From positions 1-33,547 of the forward strand of contig JANINJ010000057.1 of the NCBI GenBank assembly GCA_024508855.1: DNA of 33,547 nucleotides. The letters are read 5' to 3'. Origin of the DNA: Xanthobacteraceae bacterium (GTDB lineage Bacteria > Pseudomonadota > Alphaproteobacteria > Rhizobiales > Xanthobacteraceae). This document shows, piece after piece, positions 30,280 through 33,547 of this stretch (its first letter is position 1; each line of letters opens with the position of its first letter). The translations under genes were made by a program, and so were the position numbers. Under the pieces are notes generated by a model. The model was not told the DNA's origin, did not search any database, and saw only the letters and a list, made by a program, of their open reading frames with translations.

Positions 30280-30936
30280 ATGTCTTCGCGAGACGATCGG
30301 GCCGGATCATTCCCACAAAATTTTATGAAAAGCGGTCAGTCTGCGGACGATCAGACAAGCGCTGACCGCAGGATGCTACTGCTGTCTCTCGCCGCCGGCG
30401 CATGCGTGATCGCGTCATGCAATGCTTTCGCCGATGACGAAGACGAGCCCGGAAGCGACGAGCGACCGAAGAAGGCCGATATCCTGGTATTTTCTGAAGG
30501 CGATCAGGCCGGGAAAATCATCAAGCCCGACGATTTAAAGCTTGGAGGACCTCCGGTCCACGCATGGCCGATGGATCCGAAGACGAAGGTGGTTCGCAAA
30601 GGCTCACGTCTCAATGAAATCCTGGTCGTGAAGCTGGACCCTTCCGAGCTGGATGATTCAACAAAGTCGCGTGCCGCCGATGGCATCGTTGCATATTCGA
30701 TTATCTGCGCACATGCCGGGTGTCCCGTGAATGCATGGGTCAAGGAAGCGAACGGCGACAAGAACGTCTTCAAATGCCTTTGCCATAACTCGGAATACGA
30801 TCCGCGCAAGGCGGCGGAGGTTGTGTTCGGTCCGGCTCCGCGTCCGCTTCCAGCCCTTCCGATTGTTGCCGAGAACGGCTCGCTTGTCGTTGTCGCTCCG
30901 TTTATCGGGCATGTCGGAATCAAACAGCCCGGCTGA
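30280..30936 (+). CDS. Exported Rieske [2Fe-2S] protein, probable Tat substrate
   Basis: The 218-residue protein is a high-potential-type Rieske electron carrier. Ligand box 1 is CAHAGC (Cys143, His145, Cys148) and box 2 is CLCHNS (Cys166, Cys168, His169, Ser171). By homology to bc1 Rieske proteins the ligands are Cys143, His145, Cys166 and His169, with Cys148-Cys168 as disulfide; Asn170 replaces the usual Gly. The N-terminus has a twin-arginine DRRMLLLSLAAG at 29-40 and a possible lipobox IASC at 44-47. A fragment VFGPAPRPLPALPI matches the Rieske proline loop. No ribosome site is obvious at 30280 or at the alternative ATG 30325. It precedes the PQQ dehydrogenase by 67 bases, so it may be its electron acceptor. 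GC is low (29/60 at 30301-30360, 28/60 at 30481-30540). Confidence 0.9.
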   Translation: MSSRDDRAGSFPQNFMKSGQSADDQTSADRRMLLLSLAAGACVIASCNAFADDEDEPGSDERPKKADILVFSEGDQAGKIIKPDDLKLGGPPVHAWPMDPKTKVVRKGSRLNEILVVKLDPSELDDSTKSRAADGIVAYSIICAHAGCPVNAWVKEANGDKNVFKCLCHNSEYDPRKAAEVVFGPAPRPLPALPIVAENGSLVVVAPFIGHVGIKQPG

Positions 30937-31003
30937 CAGCCGAAATCACGAGATCGATTTGGAGTTCGCATGAAATAACACGTTCAAAGGGAGGTAAGCG
31001 CCT

Positions 31004-32734
31004 ATGACGACGATCCGAAGTCTGTTGTCGATGTTCGTTGCATCCACGTGTTTGATGCCGGTAGTCGCAACCGCGGGGCCAATCGAGAACTACAGTCCCG
31101 TTACCGCCGAGCGTCTCGCGAATCCCGAACCCGCAAACTGGATGCTCTATCGCCGTACATATGACGGCCAGGGCTTCAGTCCGCTCGATCAGATCAACGC
31201 CGCGAATGTCGGCGACCTCGTGCCGGTCTGGACGTTCTCCACCGGCGTTATCGAAGGACATGAAGCGCCGCCGATCGTCAATAACGGCGTGATGTTCGTG
31301 TCGACCCCGACGAACCAGGTGATCGCGCTCAACGCCAGGACCGGCGAGGAATACTGGCGGTACAAGCGGCAGCTTCCGGAAGATCTTTTTCAGCTTCATC
31401 CGACCAACCGCGGCGTCGGCCTTTGGCAGGACAAACTTTATCTCGCGACGACCGACGATCATCTGGTCGCGCTGGATGCCAAGACCGGCAAGGTGGTGTG
31501 GGACAAGAAGGTCCAGGATTACAAGAAGGGCCAGTACATGACGCTGATGCCGTTGATCGTCGACGGCAAGGTTTACGTCGGTGGCTCTGGCGGCGAGTTC
31601 GGGGTCCGGGGTTATATCGTCGCGTACGATGCCAATGACGGCAAGGAACTGTGGCGCACCTTTACAATTCCCGGCGAAGGCGAGCCCGGCCACGACACGT
31701 GGAGCGGCGACGACTGGAAATCCGGCGGCGGTCCGGCCTGGATGACCGGCACTTATGACAAGGATACCAAGACCATCTATTGGGGTACGGGCAACGCCGC
31801 GCCGTGGCCGGGCGGGGCGCACCCCGGCGACAATCTCTACACGAGTTCAGTGCTCGCGCTTGATCCCGAGACCGGCAAGATCAAGGCCTATCATCAGTAT
31901 CACCAGAACGACTCGTGGGACTGGGACGAAGTCGATGCGCCCATGCTCATCGATCTGCAACGTGATGGCCGATCGTTCAAGAGTCTGATCCATCCGGGGC
32001 GCGACGCCATCTTCTGGGTGCTGGAGCGCAAGCCGGACGCGATCAACTACGTCGCCGGATGGCCGTTCGTGTATACGAATGTCTGGAAGGGAATCGAGCC
32101 GGAGACCGGTCGTCCGACAGTCGACCCCGAGCACAAGCCCGTTCTCGGCAAGCGGATCGAATTCTGCCCATCGCTATGGGGCGGCAAGGACTGGCCATCA
32201 GCCGCCTACAGCCAGAAGACAAAGCTCGTCTACGTGCCAGCCAATGAAAACTTCTGTGGCGGCTTTACCGGCGAGAAGGTGCCGAAGGTGCCGGGTCAGC
32301 TTTGGCTTGGGACCAAGGCAGAAGATATCGGTCTCACCGTTCGTCCGGGTGCCGATCACTTCGGCGAATTGCAGGCGTGGGATCCTGCGACCGGAAAGAA
32401 GGCCTGGTCGCATAATTTCCCGAAATCGCAGCTCTTCGCTTCGGTAACGGCGACTGCCGGCGATCTGGTATTTGTCGGCGGCACCAACGACCGTAACTTC
32501 CATGCGTTCGATGCGAAGACGGGCAAGCTTCTGTGGCAACAGAAGACCAATTCCGGCATCGTCGGCATGCCGGTTGCCTATGAGGTCGATGGAACGGAAT
32601 ACATTGCCGTCCAGTCCGGTTGGGGCGTCGACGCGCAGCGCATTCAGGACGCGCTTGCGGGCGACAACGTTGGCATCGAAAGCAACGTGCCGCAGGGCGG
32701 AGTGGTCTGGGTCTTTGCGCTGAAGAAGAAATGA
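31004..32734 (+). CDS. Periplasmic PQQ-dependent alcohol dehydrogenase, lanthanide-type signature
   Basis: The 576-residue quinoprotein has a Sec signal peptide (cleaved after VATA, residue ~24) and the eight-bladed propeller repeats (WTFSTGVIEGHEAPPIV, LALDPETGKIKAY, AFDAKTGKLLWQ). Metal/PQQ residues by homology are Glu198 in GGEFGVRG, Asn264 in GTGNAAPW, catalytic Asp306 in SWDWDEV, Arg333 and Trp246. Asp308, two residues past the catalytic Asp, is the feature found in XoxF- and PedH-type lanthanide enzymes. The vicinal Cys-Cys of methanol dehydrogenases is absent (QLHPTNRG at 130-137). There is no C-terminal cytochrome c domain or CxxCH. AGGGAGG precedes the ATG by nine bases. Electron acceptor: probably the adjacent Rieske protein, since no cytochrome c gene is present. 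Confidence 0.92.
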   Translation: MTTIRSLLSMFVASTCLMPVVATAGPIENYSPVTAERLANPEPANWMLYRRTYDGQGFSPLDQINAANVGDLVPVWTFSTGVIEGHEAPPIVNNGVMFVSTPTNQVIALNARTGEEYWRYKRQLPEDLFQLHPTNRGVGLWQDKLYLATTDDHLVALDAKTGKVVWDKKVQDYKKGQYMTLMPLIVDGKVYVGGSGGEFGVRGYIVAYDANDGKELWRTFTIPGEGEPGHDTWSGDDWKSGGGPAWMTGTYDKDTKTIYWGTGNAAPWPGGAHPGDNLYTSSVLALDPETGKIKAYHQYHQNDSWDWDEVDAPMLIDLQRDGRSFKSLIHPGRDAIFWVLERKPDAINYVAGWPFVYTNVWKGIEPETGRPTVDPEHKPVLGKRIEFCPSLWGGKDWPSAAYSQKTKLVYVPANENFCGGFTGEKVPKVPGQLWLGTKAEDIGLTVRPGADHFGELQAWDPATGKKAWSHNFPKSQLFASVTATAGDLVFVGGTNDRNFHAFDAKTGKLLWQQKTNSGIVGMPVAYEVDGTEYIAVQSGWGVDAQRIQDALAGDNVGIESNVPQGGVVWVFALKKK

Positions 32735-33333: not shown

Positions 33334-33493
33334 CTTCTAATCCTTTCCCGGCGTCGAGAGCGATTCCCTGCGCCGGCGCAATTAATTGGCATGAATAAAT
33401 TTTGCGGAGTCTGACAACTGACGTGCCATATCCCGCATCCGTTGGCCGAAAAGCGGCGGCACGGAATTCTGAAAAGTCGCGGAAACTAATTGA

Positions 33494-33547
33494 TGGTGGG
33501 CGCACAAGGGATCGAACCTTGGACCTCTCCCGTGTGAAGGGAACGCT
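33494..33547 (-). tRNA. tRNA-Val(CAC), partial 3' portion at the right edge
   Basis: Read on the minus strand, the sequence gives an anticodon arm (5-bp stem including one U-G pair, loop TTCACAC with anticodon CAC), a variable region, the T arm CAAGG-TTCGATC-CCTTG, the acceptor 3' strand TGCGCCC, discriminator A and an encoded CCA at 33496-33494. The D arm and 5' acceptor lie beyond the window. Anticodon CAC reads Val GTG codons. Confidence 0.9.

Follow-up and report, generated by a model that had tools for sequence, protein, structure and literature searches.

Which protein takes up the electrons of a pyrroloquinoline quinone (PQQ) alcohol dehydrogenase when the gene beside it encodes a Rieske iron-sulfur protein? 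The prevailing view is that dehydrogenases of the methanol/ethanol family depend on a cytochrome c. On contig JANINJ010000057.1 of a Xanthobacteraceae bacterium (assembly GCA_024508855.1), whose full length of 33,547 bases is the window analysed here, a gene for such an enzyme follows one for an exported Rieske [2Fe-2S] protein, both on the + strand with 67 bases between them. An earlier note had drawn attention to this arrangement and proposed that the Rieske protein takes electrons from the reduced cofactor, PQQH2. Its description of the gene pair, with four cluster ligands and the disulfide Cys, is confirmed by the open reading frames (ORFs) and family scores. The two genes stay together in 40 genomes and on plasmids, and all but one of the paired enzymes that we placed in trees form a clade with an altered motif near PQQ. 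We consider it probable that the PQQ enzyme has the Rieske protein as its dedicated acceptor of electrons, and that together they form a periplasmic redox couple feeding c-type cytochromes.

The Rieske gene (30280..30936, + strand) encodes a 218-aa protein of the Thermus type, as judged by family matches, fold matches and a structure model. It exceeds the Pfam cut-off for the Rieske family (PF00355, 34.3 bits vs 20.3), its best solved relative is the Thermus thermophilus Rieske protein (1nyk, E 1.9e-39), and 1nyk is also the top fold match of the modelled protein. The four ligands and the disulfide pair C148/C168 are all present in its CxHxxC and CxCH boxes: box I, CAHAGC (30706..30723, +), holds ligands C143 and H145 together with C148, and box II, CLCHNSEY (30775..30798, +), holds C168, ligands C166 and H169, S171 and Y173. 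Rieske ORFs were found in 131 of 133 scanned loci, and 121 of these ORFs were distinct. All six cluster residues are kept in 119 of the 121, the incomplete two being the upstream copy in locus L293 and the ORF in L302. The box II Ser is present in every one of the 119 complete relatives, and the Tyr position holds Tyr in 79 and Phe in 40. In bc1 Rieske proteins, Ser and Tyr residues at the cluster raise the redox potential. The N-terminus of the window protein has an RR-containing segment followed by a hydrophobic stretch and reads as a predicted twin-arginine translocation (Tat) signal; by a loose pattern, 118 of the 119 complete relatives have an upstream RR as well. The structure model is fair (mean predicted local distance difference test score, pLDDT, 69), with a helix at residues 24-39 and a core that begins at around residue 60. 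Most of residues 61-140 score above 80, and confidence dips to 53-59 at residues 141-160, the region holding box I.

Other identities were tried for this protein and rejected. As a proteobacterial bc1 subunit it scores 39 bits against a cut-off of 97.4 (TIGR01416). As the small subunit of arsenite oxidase it scores 45.6 bits against 95.65 (TIGR02694), and its neighbour is a PQQ dehydrogenase. For an oxygenase ferredoxin, no oxygenase is found among the products of seven annotated plasmid stretches that carry the gene pair. Chance adjacency of the Rieske and PQQ genes was also considered and set aside.

The PQQ gene (31004..32734, +) encodes a 576-aa enzyme whose family is confirmed by a score of 620 bits against a cut-off of 480 (TIGR03075). 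It lacks the adjacent Cys-Cys near PQQ that is the mark of cytochrome c-linked PQQ alcohol dehydrogenases. In its place, according to the alignment and to residue pairing with the best solved relative, stands the motif LHPTNRG (L131-G137; 31394..31414, +), with H132 at 31397-31399.

We asked how far the pairing extends in three overlapping genome samples, drawn from the family (296 genomes), class (385) and phylum (398). At E 1e-20 a Rieske match was found in 28 family genomes, and in all 28 loci a PQQ gene adjoins it, 27 times directly downstream on the same strand and once upstream (L029). The class sample gave Rieske profile matches in 11 genomes (E 1e-15), nine of them new, and each adjoins a PQQ gene. 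Of 13 matches in the phylum sample (E 1e-12), 12 adjoin a PQQ gene, nine of them already seen in the family sample and three in new genomes; the weakest (L175, E 4e-14) adjoins the arsenite oxidase large subunit (AioA, 1267 bits) and is AioB. Combined, 41 genomes have a Rieske match and 40 distinct ones have it paired with a PQQ gene. The reverse search agrees. In the class sample the PQQ protein at E 1e-125 picks the same 11 genomes. In the phylum sample 47 genomes pass E 1e-95, and the 12 top matches, with at least 50% identity, are the 12 paired genomes. Identity then drops to 42%, and none of the 18 lower phylum matches fetched as loci has a Rieske gene within 1.6 kb. A PQQ fragment of 84% identity with a stop codon was seen in genome G105.

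The pairing holds equally in denser samples. From a scan of named genomes we retained 80 of 161 loci, every one from Bradyrhizobium, and in 78 of the 80 the Rieske gene adjoins a PQQ gene. In a large sister genus, 92 of 107 genomes (some also in the family sample) have the PQQ gene at E 1e-150, and 51 of 52 PQQ matches, in 50 loci, have a Rieske gene within 1.5 kb. L298 and L299 each carry the whole pair twice, in tandem. In L293 the start of the PQQ gene resembles a different subclade, and the gene has a damaged Rieske copy on its upstream side and a complete one on its downstream side; this looks like recombination between two pairs.

Coverage outside the window's phylum was of plasmid records, not chromosomes, and it is also through plasmid records that taxa other than Bradyrhizobium can be named. 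Sixteen plasmid records had Rieske matches. We examined ten, together with a second Methylobacterium stretch, and left out five further Thermus records. A PQQ gene adjoins the Rieske gene in 8 of the 10, and the pairs belong to Roseomonas marmotae, Deinococcus aetherius, Paracoccus yeei, P. alcaliphilus, Paracoccus sp. Arc7-R13, Alteromonas macleodii, Azoarcus sp. KH32C and Methylobacterium aquaticum 22A (twice). In a second P. yeei record, match coordinates place the two genes side by side. Searching plasmids with the PQQ protein (E 1e-100) gave 26 records; the nine with at least 43% identity are exactly the pair records, and the other 17 (39-42%) have no Rieske match. The earlier note had named confinement of the pairing to this strain as the main ground for giving up its proposal, and the 40 genomes and the plasmid pairs now place it in several genera. 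Three gene orders were seen, Rieske-PQQ, PQQ-Rieske and PQQ-small protein-Rieske. That the partnership survives reversal of the order argues for function over simple linkage.

The altered motif is a property of the paired enzymes as a group. We aligned 86 PQQ dehydrogenases, 33 of them Rieske-linked (including the window enzyme) and 53 not linked. Adjacent Cys-Cys is present in 52 of the 53 non-linked enzymes and in none of the 33 linked ones; the sole non-linked enzyme without it is a distant relative with about 24% identity (L180). At the same site every one of the 33 linked enzymes carries a His, preceded by Leu, Phe or Met. A pattern search in the named Bradyrhizobium genomes found Cys-Cys in 0 of 77 further linked enzymes and in 40 of 40 non-linked enzymes of the same stretches. 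The Cys-Cys disulfide ring has been tied to electron transfer to cytochrome c in the title of Mennenga and colleagues 2009, which three papers cite (PMC12997753 and PMC8546591 among them). Cytochrome neighbours were counted as well. In a scan that takes any ORF of at least 60 aa, and so may include false ORFs, 2 of 33 linked enzymes have a CxxCH ORF no more than 1.5 kb away vs 26 of 35 others, and three more of the others have a fused haem domain. Near the enzymes of the named Bradyrhizobium loci the counts are 2 of 77 linked vs 40 of 40 non-linked.

Phylogeny places the linked enzymes together. In a tree of 72 sequences (the 86 minus 13 near-duplicates and L180), 26 Rieske-linked enzymes form one clade with support 100/100 and a single label change. 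In a second tree of 49 sequences, 40 chosen from the 86 and nine from plasmids, 26 His-type enzymes again group in a single clade (100/100), with the Rieske-paired Deinococcus enzyme, still carrying Cys-Cys, as its sister (99/96). This one sequence suggests that recruitment of the Rieske partner preceded loss of the disulfide. In D. aetherius, a member of another phylum, the pair (L315) is followed by a weakly MoxJ-like binding protein, scoring below the cut-off, and by ABC transporter genes. The two partners also diverge together. In 13 genomes, chosen as having all three proteins, Rieske and PQQ enzyme distances are correlated with r = 0.86, and the partial correlation after removing the distances of an XoxF-like enzyme is 0.73, with 0 of 5000 permutations as high. 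Conserved pairing and Cys-Cys loss fit a Rieske protein that would take electrons from PQQH2.

Several observations pull the other way. The chief exception to the motif rule is the D. aetherius pair, which retains Cys-Cys, so loss of the disulfide is not required for pairing. Only 9 of 18 non-linked phylum enzymes have a CxxCH ORF within 1.5 kb, and a missing cytochrome neighbour alone is therefore not diagnostic of the linked clade. Unpaired genes also occur. Two of the 80 Bradyrhizobium Rieske loci (L143, L150) lack a PQQ gene, a partial PQQ copy (L303) is the sister-genus exception without a Rieske gene, and close Rieske relatives on one Thermus and one Meiothermus plasmid adjoin other genes. 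The genome of the window also has cytochrome-linked PQQ enzymes, and a cytochrome encoded elsewhere in that genome could be the true acceptor. In M. aquaticum 22A, strains left with XoxF1 or ExaF are reported to grow on methanol or ethanol, and the available part of that report mentions no such growth for strains left with Adh4 or Adh6 (PMC7356819), two likely homologues that are discussed below. As to the unpaired copies, L143 and L150 are second Rieske copies in strains that are also listed with a normal pair (L140, L095), and the Thermus and Meiothermus plasmid genes (L314, L319) adjoin a TauE/SafE sulfite-exporter-type gene.

These points bear on what else the Rieske protein might do. The two proteins might work in one pathway in which the PQQ enzyme passes its electrons to a cytochrome c and the Rieske protein has a different role, for instance in sensing, assembly or protection. 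The Deinococcus pair with its Cys-Cys and the cytochrome genes beside other PQQ enzymes in the window's genome would suit this reading. The full set of ligands and the Ser kept in 119 of 121 relatives point instead to a functional redox centre, few members of the linked clade have a cytochrome neighbour (2 of 33), and we judge this reading unlikely. It is also quite improbable, in our estimate, that the Rieske protein mainly serves a neighbouring molybdenum aldehyde dehydrogenase, with the PQQ enzyme using an unlinked cytochrome c. Such a partner is often at hand. A Tat-type molybdenum dehydrogenase, consisting of a large subunit and a 2Fe-2S subunit, is encoded near the pairs: a gene for the molybdenum subunit accompanies the pair in 76 of 78 named Bradyrhizobium loci and in 17 of 21 family flanks, and single-strand runs read Rieske-PQQ-small protein-2Fe-2S-molybdenum in L170 and Rieske-PQQ-2Fe-2S-molybdenum in Roseomonas. 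Of 12 class and phylum flanks, however, all contain the PQQ gene and only 3 were seen to contain the molybdenum gene; among the 12, the flank of L169 (3 kb) is not long enough to judge. Moreover, the close homologue of the molybdenum subunit in the window's own genome lies on a different contig, next to genes for a cytochrome c and a Cys-Cys PQQ enzyme.

The cytochrome bc1 complex enters in two ways. A spare or exchangeable bc1 subunit, lying beside the PQQ gene by co-regulation only, would share its fold and ligands with the window protein, and exchangeable bc1 Rieske subunits are known from the part of the literature available to us. Against this stand the score of 39 bits, below the bc1 cut-off of 97.4, the co-divergence of the Rieske protein and the PQQ enzyme, and the presence on other contigs of the same genome of two genuine bc1-type Rieske genes (TIGR01416, 246 and 213 bits), and we regard the explanation as very unlikely. 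With the same score and the same two genes, the hand-off from the Rieske protein to bc1 that the earlier note had envisaged finds no support here; in addition, the seven annotated plasmid pair stretches list no cytochrome gene of any kind, though no search for cytochrome b was made in the remaining flanks. Finally, adjacency could be a by-product of a travelling methanol gene cluster whose proteins are functionally unlinked. In Bradyrhizobium the pair is indeed often near gfa, FrmA-type, XoxG and XoxF-like genes. It also occurs in other classes and in another phylum, with differing gene orders and neighbours, which leaves this account hardly credible. A Rieske protein dedicated to the PQQ enzyme remains our preferred reading.

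We infer that electrons would pass from the PQQ enzyme to the Rieske protein in that direction, as follows. The PQQ enzyme would oxidise an alcohol to the aldehyde, and the Rieske protein would reoxidise the reduced PQQ one electron at a time. The Rieske protein itself would be folded and loaded with its cluster in the cytoplasm before export by the Tat pathway. It might then reduce a general periplasmic c-type cytochrome en route to an oxidase, like the Rieske subunit of arsenite oxidase. The potential of PQQ is about +0.1 V, and that of Rieske centres with Ser/Tyr hydrogen bonds about +0.15 to +0.3 V. With these values the step from PQQ to the Rieske centre would be downhill and a return to the quinone pool would not. 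The invariant His-containing motif that replaces Cys-Cys is plausibly one element in redirecting the exiting electrons from a cytochrome c to the Rieske cluster. In loci that also encode a molybdenum aldehyde dehydrogenase or AldA next to the pair, the aldehyde would probably be oxidised to the acid. A bolder version seems credible to us, but we lean slightly against it. It would have the whole clade swap cytochrome c for Rieske, as the first quinoprotein-Rieske couple; the Rieske protein would have come first, in a Deinococcus-like state with Cys-Cys kept, and the disulfide would have been lost later, with the His in the new electron exit. At the molybdenum loci the same Rieske protein would take the electrons of both alcohol and aldehyde, giving a haem-free alcohol-to-acid module.

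Metal use can be predicted from the alignment. Two residues past the catalytic D306 the window enzyme carries D308 (31919..31927, +, for both), an extra Asp that is a feature of lanthanide-dependent enzymes, and on this basis it is probably lanthanide-dependent. WDWDE, with the lanthanide-type Asp-x-Asp, is found in 30 of the 33 linked enzymes and WDWAA or WDWAG in the other three. Alignment columns also predict E198 (31595..31597, +) and N264 (31793..31795, +) as metal ligands, a role that these positions have in related enzymes. The PQQ enzyme was modelled too, but with poor confidence (mean pLDDT 53), and the model was not used. A likely ribosome-binding site of the PQQ gene, GGAGGT, can be read in the sequence at 30990..30995 (+).

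Among the other neighbours of the pairs, AldA-type genes lie beside those in Paracoccus, Azoarcus and L174; like the molybdenum dehydrogenase, they fit alcohol-to-acid oxidation. In one subclade (L165, L168, L170, L049, L293, L295-L297) a small secreted protein is encoded beside or between the PQQ and Rieske genes; the eight loci were found with a hidden Markov model built from four of them, and three of these proteins scanned with Pfam and two with NCBIfam gave no match. In L169 and L171 a second small secreted protein, unrelated to the first, is encoded directly after the PQQ gene, and L323 has a similar stretch. Overall, five small proteins beside pairs were scanned in Pfam, three of them also in NCBIfam, with no match.

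The window is the whole contig and ends 0.8 kb past the PQQ gene, so that the downstream context is not visible. It contains no plausible cytochrome c up to that point. CxxCH occurs in only two complete window ORFs of at least 50 aa, and in both the G+C content at third codon positions (GC3) is below that at second positions, unlike in the real genes there. The claim that no cytochrome c is near thus holds for the window; it does not extend to all relatives, for a XoxG-type cytochrome lies inside the fetched stretch in 39 of 78 named Bradyrhizobium pair loci, typically about 8 kb from the pair and beside a separate XoxF-like gene. The lower G+C content claimed for the Rieske gene is clear (0.568, against 0.634 for window bases 1-29000), and the drop in the PQQ gene is slight (0.600); GC3 is 0.615 in the Rieske gene, 0.753 in the PQQ gene and 0.785 and 0.741 in two other window genes. 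Joint acquisition, which had been suggested on this ground, is plausible. No Rieske match was found in the seven other genomes of the window's own genus in the family sample, and the PQQ gene nests with those of the sister genus. Loss in the relatives is the alternative.

The genome has pqqE, for PQQ synthesis, and four more enzymes above the TIGR03075 cut-off. On contig C42 (315728-321735, L179) a Cys-Cys PQQ enzyme, a cytochrome c, a 2Fe-2S subunit and a molybdenum subunit are encoded in a row near the contig end. This molybdenum subunit is an 81% homologue of that of the dehydrogenase seen near pairs elsewhere, and the C42 end that carries it does not overlap the end of the window. Read by eye, the window seems to end within a tRNA-like stretch on the - strand (33490-33547); ARAGORN found no tRNA in the window and none in L179.

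Enzymes of this clade may already be in the literature under another name. M. aquaticum 22A has two 'PQQ-ADH type 6a' (ADH, alcohol dehydrogenase) genes, Adh4 (Maq22A_1p32165) and Adh6 (Maq22A_1p30675), which are called uncharacterised in the part of the report available (PMC7356819), and one type 6a enzyme is described, in an equally partial source, as having Ala at position 301 and being repressed by La3+ (PMC5784242). The two Rieske-linked PQQ genes on the M. aquaticum 22A plasmid, L320 and L323, encode Ala and Asp at residue 301. From residue 301 and approximate map position only, we infer that they are Adh6 and Adh4, respectively. The window enzyme falls in the same clade in the second tree and, through these likely Methylobacterium homologues, is probably a PQQ-ADH type 6a. 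Here L320 and L323 are paired with a Rieske gene, and the word Rieske was not found in the available parts of the type 6a papers. A 2025 study, also available in part, counts 'xoxF homologs' in the xoxF regions of two Bradyrhizobium strains, three in one and two in the other (PMC12628762). Judging by how the genes are ordered in relatives, we would guess that one homolog per strain is the Rieske-linked enzyme; the word Rieske is not in the main text of that study. The openly licensed literature, as far as it was accessible, gave no published description of Rieske-PQQ pairing. If the preferred reading is true, a widespread clade, common in Bradyrhizobium and largely predicted to use lanthanides, relies on a Rieske protein, and an uncharacterised enzyme type gains a partner. 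The pairs would also offer a natural test of what the disulfide ring near PQQ does, with one Rieske lineage that has the ring and another without it. The conserved pairing suggests a hitherto undescribed route for electrons out of alcohols.

The nearest known systems on the enzyme side are XoxF/XoxG, MxaF/cytochrome cL, ExaA/ExaB and PedE and PedH/PedF, which share with the window enzyme the PQQ propeller family, the metal-site residues and the periplasmic address. As far as the available sources describe them, the XoxF, MxaF, ExaA and PedE/PedH systems combine Cys-Cys with a dedicated cytochrome c, whereas the Rieske-linked clade combines a His-containing motif with a Rieske protein. In arsenite oxidase, AioAB, electrons leave a periplasmic oxidoreductase through its Rieske subunit and go on to a cytochrome c, and an arsenite oxidase complex with cytochrome c552 is listed among the fold matches of the window Rieske protein. 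The catalytic partner in AioAB is, however, a molybdenum enzyme and not a quinoprotein, and the window Rieske protein is nearer the Thermus type. With the Thermus thermophilus Rieske protein (1nyk) and the bc1 subunits it shares the fold and the cluster motifs; it differs from them in its score below the bc1 cut-off and in having a PQQ enzyme as its partner.

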